From: Ligula intestinalis
Taxonomy: Eukaryota; Platyhelminthes; Cestoda; Diphyllobothriidea; Diphyllobothriidae
DNA: 64,000 bases
Assembly (NCBI GenBank): GCA_036362985.1
Contig: JAYGXS010000004.1
Location: 39,283,626-39,347,625 of the forward strand
Reading direction: 5' to 3'
Part shown: positions 690 through 61,250 of the stretch, one piece after another
Position numbering within the stretch: the stretch's first letter is position 1
Layout: every line of letters starts with the position of its first letter
Notes under the pieces: model-generated
Databases searched by the model: none
What the model saw: only the letters and a program-made list of their open reading frames with translations
What the model was told of the DNA's origin: nothing
Translations under genes and position numbers: made by a program

Positions 690-850
690 TCAGAAATACC
701 TATAAAGGGATCTGACGAGAGGAATTTCCCTAAATTGACATCAAATTTGAGTCCCGGATGATCCACACCTGAGATTGGGTATGACTGGCTGATGACAGCT
801 TATAAACCAGAAATAGTCATTCTGGTCTCCGTTGTTTTTGTCGGTTCCAC
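690..850 (+). repeat. SINE-like dispersed repeat copy
   Basis: The stretch contains the series GGGTATGACTGGCTGATGAC, then ATTCTGGTCTCC and TTTTTGTCGG. The same series recurs at 6870-7035 in plus orientation and at 8555-8725 and 6540-6665 in minus orientation, so this is one copy of a dispersed family. The copy at 6870 has a tRNA-like head; here the head is eroded. Boundaries are approximate because copies were compared by eye. Confidence 0.55.
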
Positions 851-21892: not shown

Positions 21893-22152
21893 AATATTGC
21901 TATGGCGTCCCCGGGAAGCGACGCGCTTCGTGGTCTTCTGGTGCCTGGAGTGCCGAATATGCAAGCCAGTGCTCTTAACTTGAACAACGCTACGGCGTCC
22001 TTGGGAAGCGGTGCGCTCCGTGGTCGTCGGGTGCCCGGAATGTCAAATATGCAAGCCAGGACTGTCAGCCTGAGCAATGCTACGGCGTCCTGGGAAGAAA
22101 TGCGCCCATGGTCGTCTGGTGCCCGGAATGTTGAATATGCAAGCCAGTCGCC
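21893..22152 (+). repeat. Three ~90 bp tandem repeats in the RTE-like 5' part
   Basis: TA(C/T)GGCGTCC begins units at 21,900, 21,989 and 22,080. Each unit continues through a TGGTGCC(T/C)GGA-like block and AATATGCAAGCCAG. The period is 89-91 bp, so copies fall in different frames and the repeat would not keep a protein repeat in phase. It directly precedes the endonuclease start. Confidence 0.85.
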
Positions 22153-23633: not shown

Positions 23634-25120
23634 TTGGGACATCAAAAGGAATTGTTCTATAAACTAGGTCTACGAAATAGACTAAAGGATCTGAACATCC
23701 AGATAAAGCATGAGATTTACAGGCTGAATGACCATTTTATAAGTCAGCTTTTTACATTTTCTACATCATCCGCTCCTCTTACTTCCTCCGAAATATGGAA
23801 GAGTTTCAAATATCTCACTGGTCAACGCAATACACTGGCACATGTTGATACCTACCTAGACAGCTTAAACGTAAACTTTATCCACACTCCCACCGACTCC
23901 TATCTCCCGGCAAATGATATTTCTTTACCACCAAGTGATTTCTCTCCAGTGTCCGTGGCAACAGTCATGAAACTCCTAAACAAGGTAAAAGGTACAACAG
24001 CTGCCGGACCTGATGGCGTCTCCCCATTTCTCCTTAAATCTTGCTTTTTTCAATATGCTCCTGTCTTGGCACATCTTATTAATTTATCTTTCATGGGGTC
24101 CAAGATTCCTGACGGCTGGCGTTCGGTCCTCCTATCCCAAAAAAAACCACTTCAGCGGGTCCCAAATCCTTTCGCCCAATTGCCTGCTCTTCTGCACTCC
24201 TCAAACTTACAGAACGAGCAGCTTTGGACATCATAAAGCCATTTTCATCCAATTTTTTTCTGATTCCTTGCAGCTTACGTATAAGGCTAGCCTTAGTACA
24301 CTAGATGCTGTTACTCTGGTAGTCCACTCTGCTCCTCGAGACATGGACAATGGATGTCGTTCATACGCATATGCCTTTCTCAACTACTCCTCAGCCTTCA
24401 ACACGATCCTGCGAAATCTTCTTAATAAAACCTCTGCATGTGGCTCTCCTGGCTTGGCCGTCTCTTGGCTTGGGAAATATTTTACTTCCCGCACCCAATT
24501 CGTTCAGAGCGGGAAGCAAAAATCAACGACCCTTCCCAACAATTGTGGAGTTCTGTAGGGGTCTATATTATCTCCTCATTTTTTTCCCTCCATACTGATG
24601 ACCTACGATCTCCAAACGCATGTTTGTTTGTCAAATATGCTGATGACATGGTTGTTGGCCATCTTCTCAAAAGCCAGACCCATCTCCAAACACTAAAGGA
24701 TGGACTGAACCATGCCACAGTGTGGTCGTCAGGAAATGGCCTTTTACTTAATGAGCGGAAGTCAGTCCTCTGTATCTTCAGGCTGCGACCCTTCTCTAGT
24801 CCCAAAGCTATTGACTTTCTGCCGAACAATGTATCTTTCTTTCGATACCTTGGTGTAACAATAGCTTCCAACCTCTCATCTACTCTTCATATTGAAGACC
24901 TTTTTAATTAAAAGCCGGGTGCGTTCTTATTGCACCCCGCAAGCCCTCATCTGGCGTTTTATAGACACTTGTATCCTCCCTCTCATTCTTTACTGCTCTT
25001 TAGTTACCTTTCCAGCACTACTCAAGAAAGATTTTAGTATTATTAAACGTATTCTCTGCACACTCTTTTCAGCTGCCGGCTATTCCTATGCTTTATTAGC
25101 TGACCTTATAATTCATTGAC
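23634..25120 (+). pseudogene. CR1-like reverse transcriptase (degenerate, motif A mutated)
   Basis: Blocks in order: KVKGTTAAGPDGVSPFLLKS (fingers), IPDGWRSVLL, FLNYSSAFNTIL (motif A, with Asn at 24,382-24,384 where Asp is expected), a GSILSP-like motif B that must be read across frames, YADDMVVGHLL (motif C), ERKSVLCIF and FRYLGVTIASNLSS. Four or more frame shifts are needed. Loss of the motif A aspartate alone would abolish catalysis. Confidence 0.8.
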
Positions 25121-26429: not shown

Positions 26430-28240
26430 TCCGTGGAATCAGCTTCAAACTCTGGTAACTTCCACCAGCTCTATTACATTCTACGTAAAGCCGTTGGCAA
26501 ATATAAACCGCCTTGCATTACTTTTCGGGATAACTTGGGTCAAGTGATAACTGATATGGTTGGCAAATCGATCAATCGCGAGAGCACTTTAGTGAGCTAC
26601 TGGATCCGCCTGTACGTTCACCTGCGAACCTACAGCTATCAACTGGAATTTCATACGGTAGTAACTGCGAACCACCTACGAGAACTGAACTGGAATCGGT
26701 ATTACAACAATTTGAACGTCGGAAGGCAGCGGGTGAAGATGTTATCCCAGCAGAAGCCTACAAAACAAATTGTTCTGATTTGACGGAATCACTGCACTGA
26801 CTGTACTCGACTTTATGGACTTTTGAATTCATCTCGACTGACTGGTCACTGCCATTATTTTACCGATACCGAAGCGCGGTGACATGAAACTATGCTCAAA
26901 TTATCGCGGCATCAACCTCTTAGATATAGCCACCAAAGTCTTTGCGACCATCCATCTCCATAGATTTTCAACTGAGCTCAATCGTCACACTCCTCCTTAC
27001 CAAGGAAAAGTTCGTCCAGGTTCAGGATGTATTGACCAGATCTTCATTCTACGCCTCATACTAGAGCACAGACGTCAAAACCAACAGATCACCACCGCCT
27101 GTTTCATTGACTTCAATACCGCTTTTGATTCTATCGAACGAGAAGCTTTGTGGCAAATCTTGCTTGCTGAGGTCTCCCACCAAAGTTGCTCAATCTGATC
27201 AAGGCTTTCTATAGTACAACATCAGCCCGGGTAAGAACCCTTGCAGAAGAGTCAAATTTTTCCCTCTAACTTGTGAAGTTCGACAAAGGTGCCCTTTTTC
27301 TCCAGTTCTCTTCAAATTCTTGGTCGACTGGGTAATGCATCAGCCAATATAACCTTACAGCGGATGTGAAATCAGCCCTAAATTGGGAATACCTGACCTG
27401 GAATATGCCGATGACATTGTGGTTCTCGGAAAAAATTCCTCAATCACTACAGCCAACGCTAGACCGAATCAAAAGCTTCGCTGCAACTGTTGGTCTGTCA
27501 ATTAATGTGCGCAAGACGAAGCTCCTGACTGTATATCTGGGCACAGCACAACCACCGTTTATTAGCGGTCAACCCATTGAAGAATTTGGCTGCTTCCGCT
27601 ATTTGGACTTGAGTATGCTAGGCAATGGACAGGCCAAAGACGAAATCAAGAACCAAATCGCGCAGGCCAGAAATGCATTAAGGCTGCTAGCCAGACCACT
27701 CTGGTCTCGCTCAGACATCACCTTACGTACTAAGCTGCTAATATACAAAGCATCAATCAGGCCGGTGTTATTATATGCCTGCAAAACATGGCCAGTGAGA
27801 AAGGCCAATATCCTATCGCTCGAAGTCTTCGATCGTTGGTGTCTTCGATGCCTCTTAAGAATCTTCTGGCAGGATTTAATCTCCAATATTGAGCTATACC
27901 GCAGATGTTTCAAACTACCAAGTCTAGCATCGTACATCCAGCATCGACGATTGCAATGGTTTGGCCATGTTCTGCGAAAACCATCGACGGACCTCTGCAG
28001 ATTGATCGTGAACCCCACTCGTAGTGCAAGGTGGTCATCTGAAGGTGGTCATCTGAAGACATGACTCACCACCGTTAAGTTGGACGTTGAATGGATGGGC
28101 CTCGTTACCGTTTACGGCTTGCGACATTTGAACAAACAATGAATTTACATCTGTGAAGAGCTCACTTCCGACCGTCGCCAATGGGCCGCCACTATTCGTG
28201 ATATCCATGAAGCCGATTCATCCAACAACAGGAGATAATC
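26430..28240 (+). pseudogene. RTE-like reverse transcriptase and C-terminal region
   Basis: Motifs: KLCSNYRGINLLDIATKVFA, GSGCIDQIF, CFIDFNTAFDSIEREALW (motif A), a VRQRCPFSPVLFKF-like motif B, LEYADDIVVL (motif C) and a 232-codon open stretch from 27,366. That stretch ends VLLYACKTWPVRKAN, then FDRWCLRCLLRIFWQD and RRLQWFGHVLRKPS. This last region is typical of the C-terminal tail of RTE-type proteins. The element keeps homology to DRRQWAATIRDIHEA at about 28,165-28,210. Multiple frameshifts are present. Confidence 0.8.
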
Positions 28241-32589: not shown

Positions 32590-33242
32590 CATTTTGTATG
32601 GTTTTTATCATCCCCAAAGAAAATAAAAGAAGAAGAAGAAAAAGAAAAAGAAAAAGTAGGTCCATGGACATGGACTGAGTTATATTTTGACTGACGTTTG
32701 AGACACTCACTTATTTTCATCGTCAGAGTAACGCGGTGGTTGTTCCTGTTTGCCGGAACTGTGTCAGCCCCGCTGTATGCCTGTTATTATATCCGTGCTC
32801 TGCGCATGAACTTTGACCTGCTTGTTCGCTACTGACTGTCCGTGAGATTGACCGCTGGGGTGGGTTCGTGTGACCTTTGTCACACGTCAGTGTGCTTACT
32901 GGCCTGTCCCTCATCCACCGACGGACTAATCACTTGTTGCCGCTCGCATGAGTTCATGTCAAGCTCATGAGCGCGGTAGCGTTGAGGTAGCGTTCCACGC
33001 TGGTCATGGGGTTGTTCTCCACTTTTGTGTCTGCTTCACCGTCCTGTTGGCCTTGTTCGAACTGACTCGAGCCGTTTGCGTACCACCTGGTAGGCACGAT
33101 GATTGTCTATAAATCTGTTAAGTGTGCCAGTCGAAGACCAACTTTCCAGCAGAAGTCTAGCCATCTTGTCATTGGCTCGGCCTATTACTTTTGCATTGCC
33201 GAAGAAAAACTGTGTTCATAGACCATAGACAGCTTATCCTTG
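32590..33242 (-). mobile_element. Penelope-like element 3' end, minus copy
   Basis: Left arm of a large inverted repeat. On the minus strand it encodes the remnant of the C-terminal part of a Penelope-like protein (NAKVIGRAN, then MARLLLESWSSTGTLNRFID), then a frame ending QTGTTTALL, then the CTGACGA ... AAACGTC motif at 32,726-32,693, and a pyrimidine-rich tail expansion near 32,628-32,656. Family assignment is from memory of such C-terminal motifs and the adjoining reverse transcriptase fragment. Confidence 0.6.
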
Positions 33243-33546
33243 GGGTTTATTTCAAACCGTTGGCTTCAAAGAGGGCATGCGAGTATTAAACCTACTCCTT
33301 CTTCCTACTGTCGTCGGTTCAGTATGTTTGAACGCGTTAGAAGAGGGTCGTTACACAACTGCGTTTGTGCCCAACGTGGTGGTGTCTTCTGAGGTGGCTG
33401 ATGCGCATGGTGTTGGTTGCCTTACGATAAACCGTTGTCCTTATCGTTCCGTCTTCTAGCTCTGTCTCCTGAACGTTGAGGAAGGGTAACTGATTGTTGT
33501 CCTCTTCTTCCATAGGGTGTATGAACATCGGCTCGCAAGCAACCGC
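33243..33546 (-). pseudogene. Penelope-like reverse transcriptase fragment (spacer of the inverted repeat)
   Basis: On the minus strand the spacer reads NNQLPFLNVQETELEDGTIR, then TTVYRKATNTM and RRHHHVGHKRSCVTTLF, and, after a shift, LFEANG. LPFLDV, YRKxTxT and the ANGY block are landmarks of the thumb of Penelope-like reverse transcriptases. The segment between this thumb and the following C-terminal part of the left arm is deleted, so the copy is not functional. Confidence 0.65.
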
Positions 33547-34185
33547 AAGGATAAGCTGTCTATGGTCTATCGACACAGCTTCGTCTTAGACAATGCAAAG
33601 GTAATAGGCCGAGCCAATGAAAAGATGGCTAGACTTCTGCTGGAAAGTTGGTCTTCGACTGGCACACTTAACAGATTTATAGACAATCATTGTGCCTACC
33701 AGGTGGTACGCAAACGGCTCGAGTCAGTTCGAACAAGGCCAACAGGACGGTGAAGCAGACACAAACGTGGAGTACAACCCCATGACCAGCGTGGAACGCT
33801 ACCTCAACGCTACCACGCACATGAGCTTGACATGAACACATGCGAGTGGCAAAAAGTGATTAGTCCGTCGGTGGATGAGGGACAGGCCAGTAAGCATACT
33901 GACGCGCCAAAAATTACGACAGCCACAAAGGGAACAAAGGTCACACGAGCCTCCCCACAGCGGTCAATCTCACGGACAGTCAGCAGCGAACAAGCAGGTC
34001 AAAGTTCGTGCGCAGAGCATGGATATAATAACAGGCATACAGCGGGGCTGACACAGTTCCGGCAAACAGGAACAACCACCGTGTTACTCTGACGATGGAA
34101 ACAAGTGAGTGTCCCAAAAGTCAGTCCAAATATAACTCGTTTCATGTCCTTTGACCTTCTTCTTCGTTGGGGGATGATGAAAACG
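33547..34185 (+). mobile_element. Penelope-like element 3' end, plus copy
   Basis: Right arm of the inverted repeat. It starts AAGGATAAGCTGTCTATGGT, which is the complement of 33,242-33,223. It has the same C-terminal fragment (NAKVIGRANEKMARLLLESW), the same QTGTTTVLL frame and the CTGACGA ... AAAAGTC motif at 34,089-34,122. Similarity fades after about 34,185. The two arms differ at a scatter of positions and indels, so the palindrome is not recent. Confidence 0.6.
34089..34122 (+). ncRNA. Hammerhead-ribozyme-like motif (Penelope 3' region)
   Basis: The core CTGACGA is followed, after a stem-like GGAAAC ... GTGTCC pair, by CCCAAAAGTC. A mirror copy at 32,726-32,693 has CTGACGA ... CAAACGTC. 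A hammerhead core needs CUGANGA and GAAA with a UH cleavage site; here GAAA has decayed. Such ribozymes are known in Penelope-like elements. Activity is unlikely. Confidence 0.35.
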
Positions 34186-44840: not shown

Positions 44841-44914
44841 CTCGAATAAAACGGGGTTACGATCTGAGACCCCCGCCAAATTAAGATTTCTGCGCAGTAG
44901 TATATATACATATG

Positions 44915-45085
44915 TATGGCATATATGCGTACACCGATCTGTTAAAGGACCCACTCATCCGTCCATGTTGCCATTAGAGCCCTCACTCGAGCCTCCACCA
45001 CGAAGCGGCTGGGATATAAGCAGAAACACATTACCGGCAACGACATCGGACACAAAAAAGGCCCTTTCTGCCGCTAAATATACCC
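44915..45085 (-). repeat. SINE-like dispersed repeat copy at the satellite edge
   Basis: CCACTCATCCGTCCATGTTG, then CACGAAGCGGCTGGGATATA, matches 3130-3295. It lies about 70 bp before the first satellite unit, so it is the left neighbour of the array. Confidence 0.6.
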
Positions 45086-45154
45086 GATCTAATACCGGCG
45101 AGAACGCGAGGTCGATGTTTAAATGTTAGGACGTTCAGCTTACAGGAAAGATCG

Positions 45155-48100
45155 CGAGTTCGATATATTCGCTCAGAAATGTGCGAACACTGATCATATT
45201 GGCTTCCGAAATAAACAAAGTTCATGTGGTGGTCAGAGGTCCCAAACGGGTGACCGCCTGCCAGGCCGATTCCGGCCAAATCATAATAGCAGCAAGAGGG
45301 GTATGACAGCGTCTGGGCGTAACTAGAAACAGAACTATTTTGGGCTTATTAGCCTTCATCAGCCAATATTAACACTGAACAACAAATGGTAAGAAAACAC
45401 AAACAAACGCACTTAGAGACATCGCAGTTGGTTTACTACTTGGGACTACCAGATGGGGCATAAGCACTTAATCGAACCGCAGTTCATCAGCGCCTCGCCA
45501 CCTGCCATTTGCTGTCACTGCAGATCAGGTATATATTCACTCAGAAATGTGCAAGCACCGAGCATATGGGCTTTTGAACTAAACAAAGTTCATGTGGTGG
45601 TCAGAGGTTCCTAACGGGTGACCGCCTGCCAGGCGGATTCCGGCCAAGTCATAATAGCAGTAAGAGGGGTATGACATCGACTGGGGTAACTTGATACAGA
45701 ACTCTCTTGGGCTTATAAGCCTTCATCAGCCAAGCTTAACCATGAACACCAGCTGGACAGACAACACAAGCAAACGCACTTACGGACATCGCAGTTGGTT
45801 TACTACTGGAGACTACCATATGGGGTATTAGCCCTTAATCGAACCGCAGTTCATCAGCGCCTCGCCGCCTGCCATTTGCTGTCACTGTAAATCAGGTATA
45901 TATTGACTCAGAAATGTGCGAACACCGATCATATGGGCTAGCGAACTAATTATAGATCATATGGTGGTCGGAGGTCCCAAACGGGTGACCGCCTGCCAGG
46001 CCTATTCATGCCAAGTCATAATAGCAGTAAGAGGGATATGACAGCGTCAGGGGGTTACTTGATTCAGACATGTTTTGGGCTCATTAGCCTTTGTCAGCCA
46101 TGCATGACCTTGAACACCAACTAGTCAGACAACACAAACAAACGCACTTACAGATGGCGCAGTTGGTCTACCATTGGGGTCTATGAGATGTTTCATAAGC
46201 AATTAATTGAAACGCAGTTCATCAGCGCCTCACCACCTGCCATTTCCTGGCACTGCGGATCAGGTTTATACTCACTTAGAAATGTGCAAGCACCGGGCAT
46301 ATGGGCTTTTGAACTAAACAAGGTTCATGTGGTCGTCGGAGGTCCCCAACGGGTGACCGTTTCCAGGCCGATGCGGGCCAAGTAATAAAAGCAGTAAGAG
46401 GGGTATGACATCGACTGGGGTAACTTGATGCAGAACTTTTTTGGGCTTGTTAGCCTTTATCAGCCAAGCTTAACCCTGAACGCCAGCTGGACAGACAACA
46501 CAAACAAACGCACTTACAGACGGCGCAGTGGGTCTTCCACTTGGGTCTGCCAGATGGGACGAAAGCGCTTAATCGAACCGCAGTTAATCAGCGCCTCGCC
46601 GCCTGCCATTTGCTGTCACTGCAAATCAGGTATATATTCACCCAGAAATGTGCGAACGCCGATCATATGGGCTTCCAAACTAAACATAGTTCATGTTGTC
46701 GGCAGAGGTCCCCAACGGGTGACCACCTGCCAGGCTGATTCCGGCCAAGTCATAATAGCAATAAGAGGGGTATGACAGCGTCTGGGGGTTACGTGATACA
46801 TATATGTTTTGGGCTCATTAGCCTTTGTCAGCCAAGCACAACCTTGAACACCAGCTGGTCAGACAACACAAACCAACGCACTTACAGATGGTGCAGTTGG
46901 TCTACCACTGGGGTCTATGAGATGTTTCATAAGCAATTAATTGAAACGCAGTTCATCAGCGCCTCACCACCTGCCATTTCCTGGCACTGCGGATCAGGTT
47001 TATACTCACTTAGAAATGTGCAAGCACCGGGCATATGGGCTTTTGAACTAAACAAGGTTCATGTGGTCGTCGGAGGTCCCCAACGGGTGACCGTTTCCAG
47101 GCCGATGCGGGCCAAGTAATAATAGCAGTAAGAGGGGTATGACATCGACTGGGGTAACTTGATGCAGAACTTTTTTGGGCTTATAAGCCTTAATCAGCCA
47201 AGCTTAACCATGAACACCAGCTGGACAGACAACAAAAGCAAACGCACTTACAGACGAGGCAGTTGGTTTTCCACTGGGGCCTGCCAGATGGGACGAAAGA
47301 GCTTAATCGAACCGCAGTTCATCAGCGCCTCGCCGCCTGCCATTTGCTGTCACTGCATATCGGGTATATATTCACTCAGAAATGTGCAAACACCGGGCAT
47401 ATTGGGTTTGAACTCAACAAAGTTCATGTGGTCGTCAGAGGTTCCTAACGGGTGACCGCCTGCAAGGCCGATGCCAGCCAAGTAATAATAGCAATAAGAG
47501 GGGTATGACAGCGTCTGGGGGTTACGTGATACATATATGTTTTGGGCTCATTAGCCTTTGTCAGCCAAGCACAACCTTGAACACCAGCTTGTTAGACAAC
47601 ACAAAAAAATGCACTTAGAGTTGGCGTAGTTGGTCTACCACTGGTGTCTATAAGATGTTTCATAAGCAATTTATCGCAACGCAGTTCATCAGCGCCTCAC
47701 CACCTGTCATTTCCTGGCACTGCGGATCACGTATATATACACTAAGAAATGTGCAAGCACCGGGCATAACGGCTTTTGAACTAAGCAAAGTTCATGTGGT
47801 AGTCAGAGGTCCCCAACGGGTGACCGCCTGCCAGGCCGATTCCGGCCAAGCCATAATATCAGTAAGAGGGGTATGACAGCGTCTGGGGGTAACTTGAAAG
47901 AGAACTGTTTTGGGCTTATTAGCCTTCATCAGCTAAGCGTTACCGTGAACAACAGCTGTTAAGACAACAAAAACAAACGCACTTACAGACGACGTAGTTT
48001 GTTTACGACTGGTGTCTACCAGATGTTTCATAAGCACTTGATCGAAAGCAGTTCATCAGCGCCTGACCACCTGCCATTGGCTGTCACTGCAGATCAGGTA

Positions 48101-51100
48101 TATATTCACTCAGAAATGTGTGAAAACCGGTCATATGGTCTTCCAAACTAAACCTAGTTCATGTTGTCAGCAGAGGTCCCAAATGGATGACCACCTTCCC
48201 GGCCGATTCCGGCCAAGTCAAAATAGCAGTAGAAGGGGGAATGACATCGTCTGGGGTAACTTGATACAGAACTTTTTTGGGCTTATTAGCCTTCATGAGC
48301 AAAGCTTAACCCTGAGCACCAGTTGGTCAGACAACACAAACCAATGCACTTAGAGACGATGCAGTCGGTCTTCCACTTGGGTCTACCAGATGGGCCGTAA
48401 GCACTTAATCGAACCGCAGTTCATCAGCGCCTCGCCGCCTGCCATTTGCTGTCACTGCAGATCAGGTATATATTCACTCAGAAATGTGCAAACACCCGGT
48501 ATATTGGCTTTTGAACTAAACAAAGTTCATGTGCTGATCAGAGGTCCCCAACGGGTGACCGCCTGCCAGGCCGATTCCGGCCAAGTCAAAATAGCAGTAG
48601 AAGGGGGAATGACATCGTCTGGGGTAACTTGATACAGAACTTTTTTGGGCTTATTAGCCTTCAGGAGCAAAGTTTAACCCTGAGCACCAGTTGGTCAGAC
48701 AACACAAACCAATGCACTTAGAGACGACGCAGTTGGTCTTCCACTTGGGCCTTCCAGATGGGGCATAAGCACTTTATCGATCCGCAGTTCATCAACGCCT
48801 CGCCGCCTGCCATTTGCTATCACTGCATATCAGTTATCTATTCACTCAAAAATGTGCGAACACCGATCATATGCGCTACCGAACTAATTATATATCATAT
48901 GGTGGTCGGAGGTCCCCAACGGGTGACCGCCTGCCAGGCCGATACCGGCCCAGTCATAATAGCAGTAAGAGGGGAATGACAACGTCTGGGGGTAACTTGA
49001 TAGAGAACTGTTTATGGCTTATTGGCCTTCATCAGCCACACATAACCCTGAACACCATTTGATCAGACAAAACAAAGAAACGCACTTACAGACGACGCAG
49101 TTGGTCTTCCACTGGGGTCTGCCAGATGGGATGAAAGCACTTAATCGAACCGCAGTTAATCAGCGCCTCGCCGCCTGCCATTTGCTGTCACTGCAGATCA
49201 GGTATATATTCACTCAGAAATGTGCAAACACCGATCATATGGGCTACCGAACTTATTATAGATCATATGGTGTTCGGATGTGCCAAACGGGTGACCGCCT
49301 GCCAGGCCTATTCATGCCAAGTCATAATAGCAGTAAGAGGGATATGACAGCGTCAGGGGGTTACTTGATTCAGACATGTTTTGGGCTCATTAGCCTTTGT
49401 CAGCCATGCATGACCTTGAACACCAACTAGTCAGACAACACAAACAAACGCACTTACAGATGGCGCAGTTGGTCTACCATTGGGGTCTATGAGATGTTTC
49501 ATTAGCAATTAGTCGAAACGCATTTCATCAGCGCCTCAGCACCTGCCATTTCCTCGCACTGCGGATTAGGTATATATTCACTAAGAAATGTGCGAGCACC
49601 GTGCATATGGGCTTTTGAACTCAACAAAGTTCATGTGGTCGTCAGAGGTCCACAGCGAGGGACCGTTGCCAGGCCGATTCCGGCCAAGTCATAATACGAG
49701 TAAGAGGAGTATGACATAGTCTGGAAGTAACTTGATACAGCATTTTTTGGGCTTGTTAGCCTTTATCAGCTAAGCTTAACCCCGAACACCAGCTGGTCAG
49801 ACAACACAAACAAACGCACTTACAGACGAAGCAGTTGATCTTCCACTTGGGCCTAACAGATGGGGCATAAGCATTTTATCGAACCGCAGTTCATCAGCGC
49901 CTCGCCGCCTGCCATTTGCTGTCACTGCATATCAGGTATATATTCACTCAGAAATGTGCGAACACCGATCATATGGGCTTCCGAACTAAACATAGTTCAT
50001 ATTGTCGGCAGAGGTCCCCAACGGGTTACCACCTGCCAGGCCGATTCCGACGAAGTAATAATAGCAGTAAGAGGGGTATGACATCGTCTGGGGTAACTTG
50101 ATACAGAACGTTTTTGGGCTTATTAGCCTTCATCAGGCAAGCTTAACCCTGAGCACCAGTTGGTCAGACAACCCAAACAAACGCACTTACTGGCGGTGCA
50201 GGTGTTTTACCACTGGGGTCTACCAGATATTTCATAAGCACTTAATCGAAAGCAGTTACTCAGCGCCTCACCACCTNNNNNNNNNNAACTAAACCTAGTC
50301 CATGTGGTCGTCAGAGGTCCACATCGGGTGACCACGTGCAAGGCCGATTCCAACCAAGTCAAAATAGTAGTAAGAGGGGTATGACAGCGTCTGGGGGTAA
50401 CTTGATAGAGAAATGTTTCGGGCTTATTAGCCTTCATCAGCCAAGCATAACCGAGAACACCAGCTGCTCAGACAACACAAACAAACGCAATTATAGACGA
50501 CGAAGTTGTTCTTTCACTGGAGTGTACCAGATGGGACGTAAGCACTTAATGGAAACGCAGTTAATCAGCGCCTCACCACCTGGCATTTGCTGTCACTGGA
50601 GATCAGGTATATATTCACTCAGATATGTGTGAATACCGATCATATGGGCTTCCGAACTAAACATAGTTCATGTGGTTGTCAGAGGTTCCCAACGGGTGAC
50701 GGTGTGCAAGGCCGATTCCAGCCAAGTCATAATAGTAGTAAGAGGGGTATGAGAACGTCTGGGGGTAACTTGATACAGAATTCTTTTGGGCTTATGGGCC
50801 TTCAGCAGCCAAGAAAAACCCTGAACACCAGCTGATCAGACAAAACAAAGAAACGCACTTACTGACGGCGCAGTTGTTTTACCACTGGGGTCTACCAGAT
50901 GTTTTATAAGCACATAATCGAAAGCAGTTAATCAGTGCCTCACCACCTGCCATTGGCTGTCACTGCAGACCAGTACATATTCACTCAGAAATGTGCGAAC
51001 ACCGATCATATGGGCTTCCAAACTAAACATATTTCATGTTGTTGGTGGAGGTCCCCAACCGGTGCCCGCCTGCCAGGCCTATTCGGGCCAAATCATAATA

Positions 51101-53008
51101 GCAGTACGAGGGGTATGACAGAGTCTGGGGGTAACTTGATACAGAACTCTATTTGGCTTATAAGCCTTCATCAGCCAACCATAACCCTGAACACCAGATG
51201 CTCAGACAACACAAACAAACGCACTTACAGACGGTGCAGTTGGTCTACCACTGGGAACTTCTAGCTGTGGCATAAGCACTTAATCAAACCACAGTTCATC
51301 AGCACGTCGGTACCTGCCATTTCTTCTGTCACTGCAGATCAGGTATATATTAACTCAGAAATGTGTGAATACCGATCATATGGGCTTCAGAACTAAATAT
51401 TGTTCGTGTGGTGGTCAGAGGTCACCAACGTATTCCCTCCTGCAAGGCCGATTCCGGCAAAGCGATAAAAGCAGTAAGAGGGGTATGATAGCTTCTGGAG
51501 GTAGCTTGGTACAGAACTCTCTTGGGTTTATTAGCCTTCGTCAGCCAAGCATAACCCTGAACGCCAGCTCTTCAGACAACACAAACAAACGCACTTACAG
51601 ACAGTGCAGTTGTCCTACCACTTGGGTCTAGCAGATGGTTCATAAGCACTTAATTGTACCGCAGTTCATCAGCACCTCGGCACCTGCCATTTGCAGTCAC
51701 TGCAGATCAGGTATATATTCACTCAGAAATGTGCGAACACCGATCATATGGGCTTCCGAACTGCACGTAGTTCATGTGGTGGTCAAAGGGCCCCAACGGG
51801 TGTTCGCCTGCCAGGCCTATTCGGGCCAAGTCATAAAAGCGTACGAGATGTATGACAACGTCTGGGGGCAACTTTATACAGAACTCGTTTGGGTTTATTA
51901 GCCTTCATCAGCCAAGTATAACACTGAACACCATCTGATCAGACAACAAAAACAAACCCACTTACAGACGGCGCAGTTGGTGTACCACTGCGGTCTAGCG
52001 GATGGGTCATAAGCACTTAATAGAACAGCAGTTCATCAACGCCTCACCACCTGCCATTTGCTGTCACTGCAGATCAGGTGTATATTAACTCAGAAATGTA
52101 TGAACACAGATGATATGGGCATCCAAACTAAACAAAGTTCATGTGGTGGACAGAGGTGCCAACGGGTGACCGCCTGCCATGCCTATTCGGGCCAAATCAT
52201 AATAGCAGTACGAGGGGTATGACAGCGTCTGGGAGTAACTTAATACAGAAATCTTTTGGGCTTATTAGCTTTCATCAGCCAAGCATAACCCTGAACACCA
52301 GCTGTTCAGACAACACAAACAAACGCACTTACAGACGGCGCGGTTGGTCTTCCACTGGGGTCTACCAGGTCGGCCATAAGCACTTAATCGAACCGCAGTT
52401 CATCAGCGCTTCGCCTCTTGTTATATGCTATAACTGCAGATCAGGTATATATTCACTAAGAAATTCGCGCACCCTGATCATATGGGCTTGCGAACTAAAC
52501 AAGGTTCATGCGGTGGTCAGGGCTTTCCAACGGGCGACCGCCTGCAAGGCCGATTCTGGCCGTGTCATTATATCAGTACGAGGGGTATGACAGCGTTTGG
52601 TGATTATTTGATACGGAACTGATTCAAGCTTATTAGCCTTAATCAGCCACACATAACTTTGAACACAAGCTGCTCAGACAACACAAATAAAAGCACTTAA
52701 AGACGGCGTAGTTGGTCTTCCACTGGGGTCTTTCAGATGATTCATAAGCACTTAATCGAACCGCAGTTCATAAGCGCCTCGCCATCTGCCATTTGCTGTC
52801 ACTGCATATCAGGTATATTTTCACTCAGAAATGTGCGAACACCGATCATATGGGCTTCCAAACTAAACATAGTTCATGTTGTCGGCAGAGGTCCCCAACG
52901 GGTGACCATTTCCAGGCCAATTCCGGTCAAGTCATAATAGGAGTAAGAGGGGTATGACATCGTCTGGGGGTAAATTGATACAGAACTTTTTTGGGCTTGT
53001 TAGCCTTC
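45155..53008 (+). repeat. Satellite array, ~367 bp monomer, plus orientation (~21 units)
   Basis: The landmark CAGTTCATCAGCGCCT (and variants) recurs at about 45478, 45847, 46216, 46581, 46950, 47315, 47683, 48049, 48417, 48786, 49153, 49520, 49888, 50254, 50560, 50929, 51294, 51663, 52030, 52397 and 52766. The spacing is 365-369 bp, except 306 across the N gap. Each monomer also carries CACTCAGAAATGTG, GGTGACCGCCTGCCAGGC, GGGGTATGACA and AACACAAACAAACGCACTTA. Open frames of 60-150 codons through it are by-products of the repeat. Monomers differ by several per cent up to about 15 per cent by eye. Confidence 0.95.
50277..50286. other. Assembly gap (10 N)
   Basis: Ten N inside the satellite array. 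The flanking monomer is about 60 bp short of the normal spacing, so the true gap is larger, or a collapse has occurred. Unit counts near it are not reliable. Confidence 0.99.
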
Positions 53009-54872
53009 ATCTGAGTGAATATATACCTGATATGCAGTGACAGCAAATGGCAGGCGGCGAGGCGCTGATTAACTGCGTTTCCATTAAGTGCTTACGTCCC
53101 ATCTGGTACACCCCAGTGAAAGAACAACTTCGTCGTCTATAATTGCGTTTGTTTGTGTTGTTTGACCAGCGGCTGTTAATGGTTATGCTTGGCTGATGAA
53201 GGCTAATAAGCCCGAAACAGTGCTCTATCAAGTTACCCCCAGATGCTGTCATAACGCTCTTACTGCTCTTATGACTTGGCCAGAAACGGCCTGGCAGGTG
53301 GTCACCCATTCAGGACCTCTGACCACCACATGAACTTTTTTTATTTCGAAAGCCCATATGATCTGTGTTCGCACATTTCTGAGTGCAAATATAAACCTGA
53401 TCCGAAGTGACAGCAAATGGCAGGTGGCGAGGCGCTAATAAACTGTGGTTAGATTAAGTGCTCATTACCAATCTGGTAGAAACCAAGTGGAAGACCAAAT
53501 GCGACGCCTGTGAGTGCTTTTGTTTGTGTTGTCCGATCCGCTGGTTTTCGGGGTTATGCTTGGCTGATGAAGGTTAGTAAGTCTGAAACAGTGCTGTATG
53601 AAGTTACCCCCAAATGCTGTCATACCCAACTTACTGCTATTATGACTTGGCCGGAAACGGCCTGGCAGTTGGTCACCCATTGAGATCCTGTCACCACCGC
53701 ATTTCTTAGTGAATATATACCGGATCCGCAGTGACAGCAAATCGCAGGTGGCGAGGCGCTGATGAATGGCAGTTCGATGAAGTGCTTATGCCCCATCTGG
53801 TAGATCCCTGTGGTAGATCAACTACGCAGTCTGTAAGTGCGTTTGTTTGTGTTGTCTGACTAGCTGGTGTTCAGGATTATGCTTGGCTGATGAAGGTTTA
53901 TAAGCCTGAAACAATTCTGTATTATTTTACCAACAGAATCTGTAATATACCTTTTACTTCTATGATGACATTGCAGGAAATGTCCTGGCCGGTGGTCACC
54001 CATCGGTAACCTCTAACCACCACATGATCTTTGCTTAATTCGGAAGCCCATATGATCTGTGTTCGCAAATTTCTGAGTGAATAAATACCTGATCTGCAGT
54101 CACGAGAAATGGCAGGTGTCGAGGCGTGATTAATTGCTTTTCGATGAAGTGCGTATGACCCGTGTGATTGACTCCAGTGGTGGAGCAACTGTGCCGCCTG
54201 TTAGTGCGTTCGTTTGTGTTGCCTGACCAGCTGTTGTTCAAGGTTATGCTTGGTTGATGAAGGTAGATACGCCAGAAAATGTTCTGTACCAAACTACCCC
54301 CGAATGCTGTCATACCCAACTTACTGCTTTTATGACTTGGCCGGCATCGGCATGGTATGTGGTCACCCGTCCGAGACCGCTGACCATCACATGACCTTTG
54401 TTTTGTTCGGAAGCCTATTCGATCGGTGTTCGCACATTTCTGAGTGAATATATACCTGACCTTCAGTGGCAGCAAATGGCAGGTGGCAAGGCGCTGATGA
54501 ACTGCGGTTCGATGAAGTGTTTGTGACCCATCTGTTAGACACCAGTGGTGGACCATCTGCGCCGTCTGTGAACTCGTTTGTTTGTGTTGTTCGAGCAGCT
54601 GGTGTTCAGGGTTATGCTTGGCTGATGAAGGCTAATAAACCATAAACACTGCTGTACCAAGTTACACCTAGATGCTCTCATACCCCACTTACTGCTATTA
54701 TGATTCGGCGGGCATCGGCCTGGCAGGAGGTCACCCTTTACGGGACCTCTGACCACGACATAAAATTTGTGAAGTCCTGGCAGGAGGTCACCCTTTACGG
54801 GACCTCTGACCACGACATGAAATTTGTGAAGTTTGGAAGCCTATTCGATTGCACATTTCTGAGTGAATATAT
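53009..54872 (-). repeat. Satellite array continued in minus orientation (5 units)
   Basis: From 53,009 the same monomer reads in reverse: GCAAATGGCAGGCGGCGAGG and its variants appear with GGCGCTGAT-like marks at 53,062, 53,425, 53,755, 54,120 and 54,490. The spacing is 363, 330, 365 and 370 bp; the short unit lacks about 35 bp near 53,700. The block ends at 54,872 with GAGTGAATATATAT. Divergence from the plus units is somewhat higher than among neighbours of the plus block. Confidence 0.92.
54719..54832 (+). repeat. 57 bp direct duplication inside the last satellite unit
   Basis: Two copies of 57 bp (54719-54775 and 54776-54832) with a single difference (CATAAAA against CATGAAA). This looks like a recent slippage or unequal exchange in the terminal monomer. 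Confidence 0.95.
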
Positions 54873-55443
54873 ATGTAGTTATTTTCCTAATAGAAACGAA
54901 AATGCGTGTTTTCGACCATAATTGAGAATGCAAGGCGATCACAGTAACCAAAGTTTTATCGTCCTCGCGTTCGGAAATTATGCAAGCTCCAACATTCAAA
55001 GTTAATAGTCACACGAATTGTCACAGTATTTATGAGTAAATTTATCTAGGCAGGCCAATGACTGTCGTTGGAATGCGGCCATGGGCATGTCTCCTCAGGG
55101 GGCGGTGGTGGCCGGCCGGTCATGTTCTTTGCTAAGCATATATCTGTAAGCTTTGAGTGACAGATTTCGCGGACCATATGAACCAATAGGGCTGTAACGA
55201 ACTCTTATAGACCCACTGCCAAGAAAATCAAATATATCTACGTTGCTGTTTCCCTTTTGCAGTTTCTACAGTAGTAATGAAACGGAAATTGGTAAGTATC
55301 TATTCCAACCTTTTTAGACAAGGAAATGGCAAGTTTAAGCTGGTGTGATAATGGTAGGTGACGGGTGAGTTGGGGCCAGGTGAAGTTGGTTAGAATTGCC
55401 GGGTAGATGACCTTTGCGAGCTCTCAGATGAAGGGTTGCTCAC

Positions 55444-57114: not shown

Positions 57115-58295
57115 GGATTAACTTAATCGCTTTGGTTATGCCATGCATGTTAAACTCGCACAGGCCCCAATAACTGTTTATTGCATATTAACAAGCTGAC
57201 TTCCACAGACCTTCTAGAAGTATTGATTGTTCATCGCAAAATAGCAGAATAACATTGCGCCTATAATCATTAAAGTAACTAGGACGATCGTAAGGAGGAC
57301 TAAAACACCAAGGCTCACCTGTGATGTTTGCTACAAGTTTTCAAATGCGAACTTTTTGGCCGTTTAACGATTCAATATTCCTCACCTTAATCCTACGGCA
57401 GTCCTTCGGCTAACTTCGACTGCAGTCGTAAACTGCGCAAAAGTCAGTGTAAAAAGGTTCAGCGCAGACTTTGAGATAATGTAAGGTGCAGGCAGTAAGA
57501 AATGGGGCTTTTACTTGCGCGATGTGAGGATCTCCCTTTACATTTAATTTAATTTTAATTTTGATTTAAAAGTGTGATGCCAATAAGGGGGAGAGGGGCA
57601 TTTAAGAACAGTCACCTTGCGCAGAGATTGCCAAAAGGGGCTCAGTCAAAAGGGAGTTTCTCCGGTTCGCTCTGTTACGTTACAAAGGGATAGTTACTTC
57701 GATTTTTCAGGTAATTGTCGTCATCTGAGTCAGTTACCAGGATCTTAGCTTTAGTACAATTTCTAAGTTCTACCCCCAGCTTTTCAGAGTTTACACACTC
57801 CAGTCTACCAGGGCGTCTATCGTCAGTTCAACTGTTCCCACGAGAAGGCACGCTAGCGAGCGTCGGCTTACCAACATAACAGTTTAGCGTATGTGGGCGT
57901 AGCCGCTCGAGCGGAGGATCGCGGTTCAGCGAGTCAAGCTTATCGGAAAATCGATGGCTCAATGCTGATCAACGCTCTCCTGACCTCGACGGCTACAGCA
58001 TCGCGCTTTCTTTCGCATTTCAGGCAACCTCTTACCTACAAACCGCCCAGGGCGCAAAATAAAGCCCTCATCTACTATTGATTCTCTCGCCTCTCCTGTT
58101 TCATGTGTCGTGGTTTTATTGTTGGCTTTTAATTTCTTCAGAAATAAATCGCTATCTTGGAGTAAATAAGTAAAGACGAAGCTTTATAGGCGCTGACTGA
58201 AAGTGAATGTAACTAGTTGGGTCGATGTCTATTCAATACAGCGAAATAATCACGTAAACTATCAACAGGCAGCCAGTATTATATATCTAGGGATT
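57115..58295. other. Stretch without recognisable genes
   Basis: No convincing exon, repeat or RNA seen. An AT-rich tract lies at 57,540-57,570. Confidence 0.4.
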
Positions 58296-58313
58296 ACATA
58301 GTTCACCATACTG

Positions 58314-58990
58314 ATGGCACGAGAGCTGACTAAGAACTCAGACGCGTTTTCGCCGATATTTTGTCACTGCATGACACAGCTTCGAATGGTTCGGTTAATT
58401 AGGATCTCCTTTGTGCTGTCTGGTAAAAACTCAACTCTTAGAAGCTACGCCAAGAACGAAATGGAAAGCACTCGCGTAAAGATTTATGAACTGGAGTGTC
58501 ACGTGTGTCAACGCGCTGCCATTCTAGACACTTTGAACAAGGAAGAAAAACAGGAATTTAGCAATTACTTGCATATTATAGGAATAAAACGTGGGGATGC
58601 CAAGAGATCGTCATTCCTTCAAAAGGTACAGGAAATCAAACCACAGTCAAGATTCCCAAAAATCCACAGCGCTATGTCCACGACTACTCTGCTCTAACAC
58701 TTGATACAACTCTACTCGAAGCATTATCACTGGGTCCAAAATTCTGTATACCTAGGCAAAAGATTATTCAGTTAGAACTAGAAACCCAGTTTGAGAATCT
58801 CTACAATCAAGTTTATGACCCCAAGCCGATCTCCGCTGATAGTGCCCAGCGCTTCAAATCAACACTGGTGAATTGTAGTTACCAGTACTTGAACCGGAGA
58901 CTAATAAATCGCGGAATGCTGACAAAAACACACAGACAAGTTAAAACGGCTGAGAGCAAACAAGGAGATATCGGTTACTAAACCAGACAA
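58314..58990 (+). pseudogene. Penelope-like ORF, N-terminal part
   Basis: A frame from 58,314 contains ELECHVCQRAAILDTLNKEE and FLQKVQEIKPQSRFP. The family reading then shifts near 58,670 to a frame with YSALTLDTTLLEALSLGPKF and LETQFENLYNQVYD, and near 58,935 to a frame with LRANKEISVTKPDKGTGVVL. KPDKGxGVV is a constant block just ahead of the Penelope reverse transcriptase. Confidence 0.75.
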
Positions 58991-59179
58991 AGGAACAGGC
59001 GTCGTTCTAATGAACAGATCGGACTATGTTACCAAGATGCAGACCATACTATCAGATCCGACGAAATTTAAGAAGGTAGACAAAGTAAAAGATTGTACAG
59101 ATGAAGCAGAGGTACACCTGACCAGCTGCTTAAGAAGACTACACACAGCAGGATTTCTAGTGACCAAGACCTCGAACAT

Positions 59180-60163
59180 TTGCGACCATTAGGCACGCAC
59201 ATTCCCCGTTTATGTGGTCTAACTAAGATGCACAAGAATGGACTGCCAGTTCACCCGATTTTAGACATGAAAAACTCGCCGTATCATGCAATAGCGAAGT
59301 GTTTGGGAGAGAAACTCAAGCCCATACAGCAACAGCTGGCACGACATAGCTATCAAGATACGTTCCAATTTATCGATGGTATCAAAGACATAAACTTAAA
59401 CGGTATGATGATCTCCCTAGACGTCTCATCGCTGGTTACAAACGTTCCAGTAACAGAAACAGTCTACTATATCTGCGACTTCGTAGTGGCAAATCAAAAA
59501 GACGTAAGAATACCACCTGACGTATTAAGGGAACTATTACTCAAATGCACATTAAATGTGCGATTCCTTTTTGACAACCAACTATATAGATAAATAGACG
59601 GTGTCCCTATGGGCTCGCCTTTTGGGCCTCTCTTGGCCAACATCTTCATGGGCAAACTGGAAAAATTTCAACTTAGTAAGCAGATCCATGATTTAAAACA
59701 CTTTGGCCGATGTGTCGATGATATCTTCGCCCTCACCCCAGCAGATACTGATGTAAATGCGCTTCTACATACTGTTAATCAAACACACCCCTCCATTAAG
59801 TTCACCTTGGAGGTGGAGATGGCAGGTTCGCTTCCTTTCTTGGATGTCCTCCTAAATCGAAGACCTGACGGTAGCATCCGAAGGAGCGTTTACCGAAGGA
59901 AAACTTGGTCCGGACAGTATACAAACTTTAACAGTTTTGCAGCCATCCAAAAGAAGCGTAACTTGGCCCGCCGCTTAACGCAAAGAGCCAGAAAAATCTG
60001 CTCAGCTGACACTATTGAAATGGAACTCCAGAGACTCCAGGACGTGCTTCGAGAGAATGGATATCCAGCCAGATTCATCATAAAGAATATGATGGAGAAA
60101 GGAACAAAGCCCAACACAACTACAGTGAAAAAGAAGACGCTATTCCTTAAATTCCCCTTTTAA
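59180..60163 (+). pseudogene. Penelope-like reverse transcriptase (one stop, altered motif C)
   Basis: One open frame with a single TAA at 59,591-59,593. Motifs in order: LTKMHKNGLPVHPILD, MMISLDVSSLVTNVP (motif A, catalytic Asp), the stop, VPMGSPFGPLLANIFM (motif B), HFGRCVDDIFAL (motif C, with Cys where Tyr is usual before VDD), SLPFLDVLLNRRPDGS, VYRRKTWSGQYTNF and ENGYPARFI. The length and order fit the family. The Asp pair is kept, so apart from the stop the core is well preserved, which suggests a fairly young copy. Confidence 0.9.
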
Positions 60164-60314
60164 TGGATGCAGCAAGCGAACTCTTAAGCAGACGCCTCAA
60201 GCAAGCCGTAGCACAAACCTTTTCAGCAGCGAAAATTCACGTGTTATTTTCGACCAACCCGATACTGCACGGTGAGGGTAAGATAAGCTGCCAACTCAGA
60301 CCACTTCTATGTGT

Positions 60315-60640
60315 ATCTACTCATTTACTTGCTCCTGTGGAGCTGGTTATATCGGTCGCACGAGTAGGCGCTTATCTAAAAGAATACGGAAAACCTCCTG
60401 GCATGGCTAGCCAAAGGCGAGACCAAAAGCATAAACAGTTCTATCCTCGCACACATGGTTGACACCGGACATCGTGTCCCACCTAACTACCCAAAGTCCC
60501 TCGGTCAATTTCTGCTGGCAACAGCAGAAACAACCGCAATCCGATTGAGGAAACCGGTTTTGTGTGGACAAAAGAATCTCGTGCAAGCCCCCAACTTGGC
60601 ATGACCAACGATTACCTAACTGGCAGCACATTTCCGCGCT
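60315..60640 (+). pseudogene. Penelope-like GIY-YIG endonuclease (frameshifted)
   Basis: The signature CSCGAGYIGRTSRRLSKRIR is read from about 60,325. The preceding frame (from 60,163) is out of phase by one, so a shift occurs near 60,310. A stop in TSWHG then a second shift leads to INSSILAHMVDTGHRV and IRLRKPVLCGQKNLVQAPN near 60,540-60,590, the tail block. The GYIG part and the following Arg are present; the catalytic Glu further on is not resolved. Confidence 0.85.
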
Positions 60641-60699
60641 CTGATTGGACCCTGCATGTAAAGAAAGACAAACTATCAATTTTTAAATTAAAACCTCCT

Positions 60700-61250
60700 T
60701 TGTAACTGTTTGGCCTGATGAGAAGTTACTGAAGGCGTTCGCTCGCCAAAATTGTGTTCTGAATTATTTAATGGGAATTTTCACAATTTTTAAACAATTA
60801 TGCGGTTATCCAACTGTTACTGATAGACGTCGACCAAATTATTCATGCTAACTTTCAGTCTAGGGCTACAAATCCTCATGCAAACTGATTTACTCCAAGG
60901 TCGCGATTAATTTCTGAGGAGAGTACAAACTCGAGTATCTACCAAAAAGCACACAGTGAACGCTGGGGGACCCATTAATGAACAGGGTCCCTCGTAGATG
61001 CGTCACACAGCAGCAGAATATCGGCAAAACACATGTCTGGGCATTAAGATAGCACCGATGTATCATGCAGCATCGCCTAACTTGGGCCATGCAGGCAGTT
61101 AGTCCTCAGGAGTTGTCTTAACAAGTCATCCTTTGGTAAGAATGACTTGTTTGTCCGCCTAATCAGGACACGGGAATAGGAGCGCTTCGCCCACTTAAAT
61201 AGGTCACCTTGCGATGAAATGCAAGAAGATTAACTATCATCTTTTCTTAA
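60700..61250. other. 3' flank of the Penelope-like element
   Basis: CCTGATGAGAAGTTACTGAA at 60,715 resembles the start of a hammerhead core (CUGAUGAG and GAA), but stem II would have three pairs and one loop base, so it is not convincing. The stretch 61,155-61,205 is a diverged inverted copy of the repeat at 61,960-62,010 (GGACACGGGAATAG against GGACCCGGGAATAG). Confidence 0.4.

Follow-up and report, generated by a model that had tools for sequence, protein, structure and literature searches.

A head-to-head satellite array in Ligula intestinalis as a probable insertion of a retrozyme-like retroelement with a hammerhead motif

A 64,000-nucleotide stretch of the genome of the tapeworm Ligula intestinalis (assembly GCA_036362985.1, contig JAYGXS010000004.1, positions 39,283,626 to 39,347,625 of the forward strand; here called the window) contains a tandem array of units of about 368 bp, located with Tandem Repeats Finder and BLAST at positions 45,163 to 54,872. 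The array probably arose long ago by insertion of a small, nonautonomous, retrozyme-like retroelement whose unit carries a putative hammerhead ribozyme, followed by local expansion. Its insertion anatomy would explain why a satellite array starts and ends at the same phase of its unit, with a flip of orientation inside. A family with young copies would record the insertion reaction in its edges, including the target, the start points of copying, the use of the two strands, and the joints.

Structure and age of the array

Units were numbered over 368 positions, with phase 1 set at the ATATATTCACTCAG site. The plus-orientation block (positions 45,163 to 53,011; ribozyme-sense strand, minus) comprises 22 aligned rows and runs from phase 1 to phase ~198. 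The minus-orientation block (positions 53,010 to 54,872; ribozyme-sense strand, plus) comprises about five units, the outermost of which contains a 57-bp tandem duplication (positions 54,719 to 54,832, plus strand). The outer edges at 45,163 and 54,872 both lie at phase 1 (ATATATTCACTCAG) when each is read in the orientation of its own block. The orientation switch (positions 53,010 to 53,011) is a 5'-to-5' junction in ribozyme sense with 2 bp of microhomology (TC). At this junction the plus block stops at ...TTCATC, phase ~198 of 368, within the ribozyme core (BLAST alone set this end at 53,007, phase 193), and the minus block stops at phase ~15, about 14 bases beyond the phase-1 site. The original prediction had described about 21 plus units followed by five minus units, with both edges (45,158 and 54,872) and the switch at one monomer site. 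The order of orientations and the common phase of the two outer borders were borne out, with the left edge refined to 45,163, but at the switch only the minus block ends near that site.

Two independent edges would fall within ±2 positions of one phase with a chance of about 1.4% (5/368); the genome-wide edge counts given below are far stronger than this figure. Because 10 N at positions 50,277 to 50,286 break the array within the plus block (phase 339 before and ~46 after the gap, by BLAST), the number of units and the order of contigs depend on scaffolding. The switch is 2.7 kb from the gap and within a single contig.

Array units were 84 to 92% identical to the array consensus and appear old. 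The plus block contained near-identical pairs of units (p03 and p12, 96%; p04 and p06, 95%), and its units clustered in a tree. One minus unit (m05) grouped with a plus unit (p15), which suggests that the two blocks exchanged sequence or have a common origin; three other minus units fell on the side of the dispersed copies, without a settled position.

Edges and joints of dispersed copies

The unit is dispersed over the assembly (644 Mb in 2,377 contigs), with 1,829 first-look candidates, 40 of which were scored. Dispersed copies were not in long arrays, and single pieces were 27 to 1,196 bp in length. Full dispersed units (n = 27) were 93 to 99% identical to their own consensus, and 23 of them kept the whole ribozyme core; for both reasons, the family appears to have moved fairly recently. 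One locus (L024, positions 4703 to 9901) contained further arrays of the unit, in which young parts and old parts occur together with a change of orientation.

Exact-pattern searches of the assembly found the phase-1 end fused to (TA)n on the ribozyme-sense 3' side at 565 sites (reversed-pattern control, 0) versus 10 sites for the matching pattern on the sense-5' side of the same ATATAT (control, 0); the letters of the sense-5' pattern differ in an older subfamily, so that both counts favor young copies. A second end, at phase 124, was fused to (TA)n at 148 sites (control, 0). The 565 and 148 fixed-end sites, together with a unit that at 368 bp is too short for a polymerase reading frame, are features of a nonautonomous dispersed retroelement. 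The imbalance disfavors a hot spot of breakage acting on both sides of the monomer site; a breakage hot spot had been one suggestion of the original prediction. The other was a monomer with defined ends, as in a mobile element, to be checked against isolated monomers and other arrays elsewhere in the genome; their edges favored a defined end on the sense-3' side, mostly at phase 1 or near phase 124, but the 5' edge was not fixed.

Individual edges were surveyed at 47 loci, alongside the three exact patterns. Sample A consisted of 27 loci (L002 to L028) chosen without regard to edges, of which 24 were top ranked by similarity to one full unit after the window and three came from lower down the list. 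Sample B consisted of 20 loci (L029 to L048), taken in listing order from places on contig C1 where phase 1 meets TA, excluding sample A places and regions already taken; since it was chosen by that edge, only its 5' edges are informative. Edges cut by the end of a locus and matches with both <90% identity and <50 bp were dropped before counting. Sense-3' edges in sample A (n = 52) lay at phase 1 in 32 cases, at phases 119 to 131 in 10, and elsewhere in 10; those in sample B (n = 44) were distributed 30, 11, and 3, respectively. For 5' edges, phases 364 to 10 were used as the range around phase 1, because ATATAT covers phases 1 to 6. The 5' edges in sample A (n = 30) lay in this range in 2 cases, at phases 119 to 131 in 2, and elsewhere in 26 (two of them adjoining N), and those in sample B (n = 16) were distributed 1, 3, and 12 (one adjoining N). 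Across both samples, 0 of 46 lay at phases 364 to 4 and 3 of 46 at phases 364 to 10 (3 of 43 without edges at N). The sense-3' edge is thus fixed, and the sense-5' edge varies. Pairs of unit copies facing 3' to 3' across one short TA run were also seen on contig C1 (6977028/6977039, 14699803/14699812, 53492057/53492068, and 65777486/65777497).

These edges bear on the possibility that the array is an ordinary satellite shaped by unequal crossing-over and one inversion, its matching outer edges being coincidental. Related unit pairs and clustered subfamilies in the tree do show local exchange, and one core residue (G12) has been lost from 20 of the 22 rows of the plus block. Such an origin is strongly disfavored by the genome-wide recurrence of edges fixed at one phase, with zero in the control, and by the occurrence of dispersed copies outside long arrays, and it is regarded as very improbable.

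Inserts with inverted pieces were found among the dispersed copies. The 72 inserts comprised 47 with one piece, 24 with two, and 1 with four. Read in ribozyme sense, every one of the 24 two-piece inserts was joined 5' to 5'; the outer edges lay at phases 1 and 124 in 12, at phase 1 on both sides in 5, and in other combinations in 7. The inner junctions (n = 25) had a mean overlap of 4.4 bp, with at least 2 bp in 20, versus a mean of 1.6 bp and at least 2 bp in 27% among 300 simulated junctions subjected to the same search (P = 4.5e-7). One insert (L044), which runs from phase 1 to phase 214 and then reversed from 118 to 1, shows the arrangement of the window array in small, young form.

A purely DNA-level origin, in which satellite circles or fragments recombine into (TA)n through the ATATAT of the monomer and inversions come from double-strand-break repair, would draw on several of the same data: ATATAT is present at phase 1, inner junctions show microhomology, and three loci (L004, L025, and L039) have a 5' edge at phases 6 to 9 against TA. 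Recombination at ATATAT should nevertheless fuse both sides about equally, and not at 565 versus 10 sites, and TA homology is only weak at phase 124, where the other fixed end lies. Had the window array undergone a simple internal inversion, the minus block would be expected to have its outer edge near phase 199, not 1. Copies up to 99% identical to the consensus already point instead to young insertions with fixed 3' and varying 5' edges, and the DNA-level origin is considered improbable.

Hammerhead motif and proposed insertion mechanism

With the core consensus intact, the predicted ribozyme reads GCUUGG-CUGAUGA-AGGCUAAUAAGCCC-GAAA-CAGUUCUG-UA|UCAAGU and lies on the plus strand in the minus block and on the minus strand in the plus block. 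Stem I has 6 pairs, stem II has 4 past an A-C mismatch, and stem III has 4 (or 3 with a tetraloop). A hammerhead descriptor (core and stems of at least 5, 3, and 3 pairs) was passed by none of 20,000 shuffled versions of the unit. A type I hammerhead is thus present in the unit at the level of the motif, with Rfam HH9 matches below the gathering score. The best match in the array (positions 53,177 to 53,250, plus strand; HH9, 17.3 bits; E value, 3.5; gathering score, 52) and the second (positions 50,386 to 50,455, minus strand; HH9, 17.2 bits; E value, 3.9) both have intact core residues. All core residues were kept in 4 of 27 aligned window units, and the G12 change of the plus block is expected to kill the ribozyme. 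A stretch of the sense strand (GGTTCGATGAA) looks by eye like a B box, which bears on whether the unit could have the Pol III promoter of a SINE.

The predicted cleavage site is at phase ~166, and many copies read across it. The 5' ends were not piled there (2 of 93 at phases 156 to 176; 5.3 expected), and on both counts the ribozyme cut was rejected as the end of the template. For the same reasons, the template would be a circle or an uncut multimer. The 5' ends were somewhat enriched at phases 190 to 235 (19 of 93; 11.6 expected; P = 0.02, with the range picked post hoc). The window switch falls inside this range, and perhaps the ribozyme fold slows copying.

An insertion reaction can be proposed from these sequence features, in which multimeric or circular unit RNA would be reverse transcribed at a cut in genomic DNA, usually at TA-rich DNA or (TA)n. 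In most cases copying would begin within the RNA, at either phase 1 (...GAAUAUAU) or phase 124 (...CUGCUAU), which would hold the sense-3' edge constant and leave the 5' edge free to vary. Priming could occur on both strands of the target; the two complementary DNAs (cDNAs) would then join 5' to 5' through a few bases of microhomology, so that orientation flips between outer edges that are each fixed. The fixed 3' edge, the varying 5' edge, the TA targets, and the reversed pairs would all be accounted for by target-primed reverse transcription on the two strands. The window array fits this form in its sequence, with outer edges at phases 1 and 1, an inner junction of ~198 and ~15, and a right edge on a TA-rich tail. 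Later unequal exchange would have enlarged the plus block and spread the change predicted to kill the ribozyme, as suggested by the near-identical unit pairs, the clustering in the tree, and the common loss of G12.

Several observations weigh against this origin. The longest dispersed single piece is 1,196 bp versus 9.7 kb for the window array, so that local expansion must be added to insertion. The left edge of the array is not at (TA)n now but interrupts another repeat, Q (described below), at ...GAGTTCG; copying might have started without TA homology, as the Anolis Penelope-like protein discussed below can, or the tail may later have been deleted. Edges were taken from BLAST and are accurate to a few bases. 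Among sample A 3' edges, the 10 of 52 noted above lay at neither phase 1 nor near 124, and under a strict 12-bp rule a TA flank was found at 20 of 31 usable phase-1 3' edges and at none of the other 11. The 5' edges were partly nonrandom, with 3 of 43 usable edges at phases 6 to 9 and an excess at phases 119 to 131 (5 of 43; 1.5 expected), and 12 of 43 in both samples had a TA flank; TA homology seems to act at the 5' joint too. The number of two-piece inserts depends on a scoring rule by which a minus-then-plus contact counts as two insertions, and 5 of 25 inner junctions include a piece under 40 bp. As to the ribozyme, Rfam hammerhead scores were under the curated cutoff and not significant (E values, 3.5 to 3.9 in the window), no Rfam match within the window reached a gathering score, and a chance-level match to the COG3860 RNA outscored the hammerhead there. 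Six of seven fetched loci gave subthreshold hammerhead matches (21.7 to 24.9 bits; E values, 0.056 to 0.6), and in a single RNA fold of the unit the minimum-energy structure was not a hammerhead.

Candidate mobilizing enzymes and neighboring elements

The sequence anatomy described above leads by inference to an RNA intermediate, to circularity of that RNA, and to a Penelope-type enzyme as the mobilizing machinery. At AT-rich DNA, the purified Penelope-like protein of Anolis (Poseidon) cleaves both strands and extends them; it begins copying at two sites inside the RNA, which match the ends of genomic copies, and the hammerhead of the element is dispensable for insertion in vitro (PMC11167929). 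Penelope elements of Adineta have head-to-head terminal repeats and an optional tail, according to the passages cited (PMC3846280). By analogy, a Penelope-like enzyme would move the 368-bp unit.

LINE (long interspersed nuclear element) insertions likewise have fixed 3' ends, variable 5' ends, and, in some cases, inverted pieces. The same retroelement might therefore have been moved by a LINE enzyme with classical twin priming and not by a Penelope-like enzyme. Published Penelope-like behavior is the closer match for two internal starts, common use of both strands, and targeting of AT sequence (PMC11167929), and in the cited passages Penelope elements have inverted repeats set head to head, optionally with a tail (PMC3846280). 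A Penelope-like 3' region with alternative (TA)n ends and one chimeric insert containing it were found here, in a survey of (TA)n flanks at loci fetched for the unit. Mobilization by a LINE is unlikely, though less so than either of the alternatives weighed above.

The closest known kind of element is the animal retrozyme, with which the unit belongs as a variant with readable insertion anatomy. As described in the cited passages on animal (non-long terminal repeat [non-LTR]) retrozymes, these also have a hammerhead per unit, tandem units of a few hundred base pairs, and no LTR features (PMC7229834); the 368-bp tandem unit of the window lies within the range of 150 to 450 bp expected of such units. 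In the same passages, mobilization by the reverse transcriptase (RT) of another element is proposed and the mobilizing enzyme is left open, with Penelope-like elements as strong candidates (Cervera & de la Pena 2020; PMC7229834). Circular RNA has been shown for animal retrozymes, whereas the 368-bp unit is known here from DNA; conversely, the (TA)n target, the two main 3' ends, the variable 5' ends, and the 5'-to-5' inverted joints are visible here, unlike in the animal retrozymes as described there (PMC7229834). Schistosoma W-elements are also flatworm satellites, some with hammerheads, and the passages cited describe no insertion-edge anatomy; the likeness is one of description (PMC8490949). 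Among literature on tapeworm hammerheads, no title seen concerned the 368-bp unit family, and in further literature no title or abstract opening among the matches listed describes the mechanism. Schistosoma Sm-alpha is another of the flatworm satellites, some of which bear hammerheads.

The unit resembles Penelope-like elements in its two putative internal RT starts (the "tail"), the extension of both strands, AT-rich targets, and inverted terminal repeats, as far as these are described in the cited sources (Anolis Poseidon, PMC11167929; Adineta, PMC3846280), and it shares a hammerhead motif with Anolis Poseidon (PMC11167929). Two start points and inverted joints at AT-rich targets, as in Penelope-like working, were both found in the unit sequences. 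In contrast to these elements, the 368-bp unit lacks a reading frame for RT and GIY-YIG endonuclease and for that reason was not filed among them; its starts are ~123 bp apart versus 30 to 40 bp for the Penelope-like tail, and its target is a dinucleotide microsatellite. Conceivably, although this is held with less than even confidence, a TA-targeting Penelope-like enzyme moves an animal retrozyme in trans, using circular ribozyme RNA and both strands of self-complementary (TA)n, with head-to-head arrays born in one step. If so, hammerhead satellites of other animals could arise by the same one-step route. With the insertion reaction readable in the edges, the identity of the enzyme that mobilizes animal retrozymes, and of the RNA that it copies, becomes open to direct testing.

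Repeat R, a recurrent family at (TA)n flanks whose alternative 3' ends adjoin (TA)n, is a candidate partner of the unit, being TA associated and Penelope-like in sequence. The flank survey used loci fetched for the unit, and 84 of 159 flanks were the unit itself. At one locus (L014), the terminal pieces of an R copy are reversed, each adjoining (TA)n, and they enclose a segment that weakly matches GIY-YIG (E value, 0.0021, below the cutoff). At another (L022), R and the unit are joined 5' to 5' in a single insert flanked by (TA)n runs; this was the one clear chimera among 43 single-piece inserts and is no more than suggestive of a partnership. Other repeats also end at (TA)n, so R stands as a candidate and not as the established partner.

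Beyond the right edge of the array lies an old copy of R (a Penelope-like 3' region; positions 54,880 to 55,108, minus strand; about 71 to 74% identical), whose degenerate TA-rich tail adjoins the array. On the left, the array starts at an internal point of repeat Q (positions 44,901 to 45,162), which is itself partly inverted; other Q copies bear a hammerhead-like motif.

A decayed Penelope-like element occupies positions 58,127 to 60,928 of the window (plus strand), with an RT fragment at 59,609 to 60,163, and the closest named proteins were from Spirometra and Dibothriocephalus. Comparison of five window open reading frames with protein families gave one weak RT match. The family of this element is very large (19,970 first-look candidates, 150 of which were scored), and its copies end at either of two 3' points spaced by about 25 bp, as judged from BLAST ends. 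This family is probably not the partner of the unit, because a (TA)7 run is absent from all 12 of the family loci surveyed (L049 to L060, 3.6 kb each); the unit had no BLAST match in these loci either. A ribozyme-like motif near the 3' end and head-to-head pairs (e.g., C7:31016297, minus strand, and 31017540, plus strand) were also seen in this family.

Frames resembling decayed RTs were seen at window positions 23,634 to 24,911 and 27,366 to 28,064; the frame at 24,438 to 24,911 had a weak RVT_1 match below the cutoff, and the other RT-like frames had no Pfam match. The window also contains two long inverted repeats (32,647 to 33,247 with 33,541 to 34,168, 628 bp, 89%; 2,188 to 2,986 with 10,462 to 11,278, 818 bp, 86%) and a minisatellite of about 90 bp in 2.8 copies (21,899 to 22,148). 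A subthreshold Rfam Hammerhead_1 match lay outside the unit at L015 (4967 to 5042, minus strand; 23.9 bits; gathering score, 34). A second hammerhead-like family (ACTGGCTGATGACGGCTAATAAGCCAGAAATGGCCATTCCGGTC) was present at window positions 784 to 830 (plus strand), at L007 (1943, minus strand), L009 (4107), L012 (5452), L013 (6200, minus strand), L015 (6355, and 6262 on the minus strand), and L018 (9675), with a GGTTCRAATC stretch ahead of several copies.

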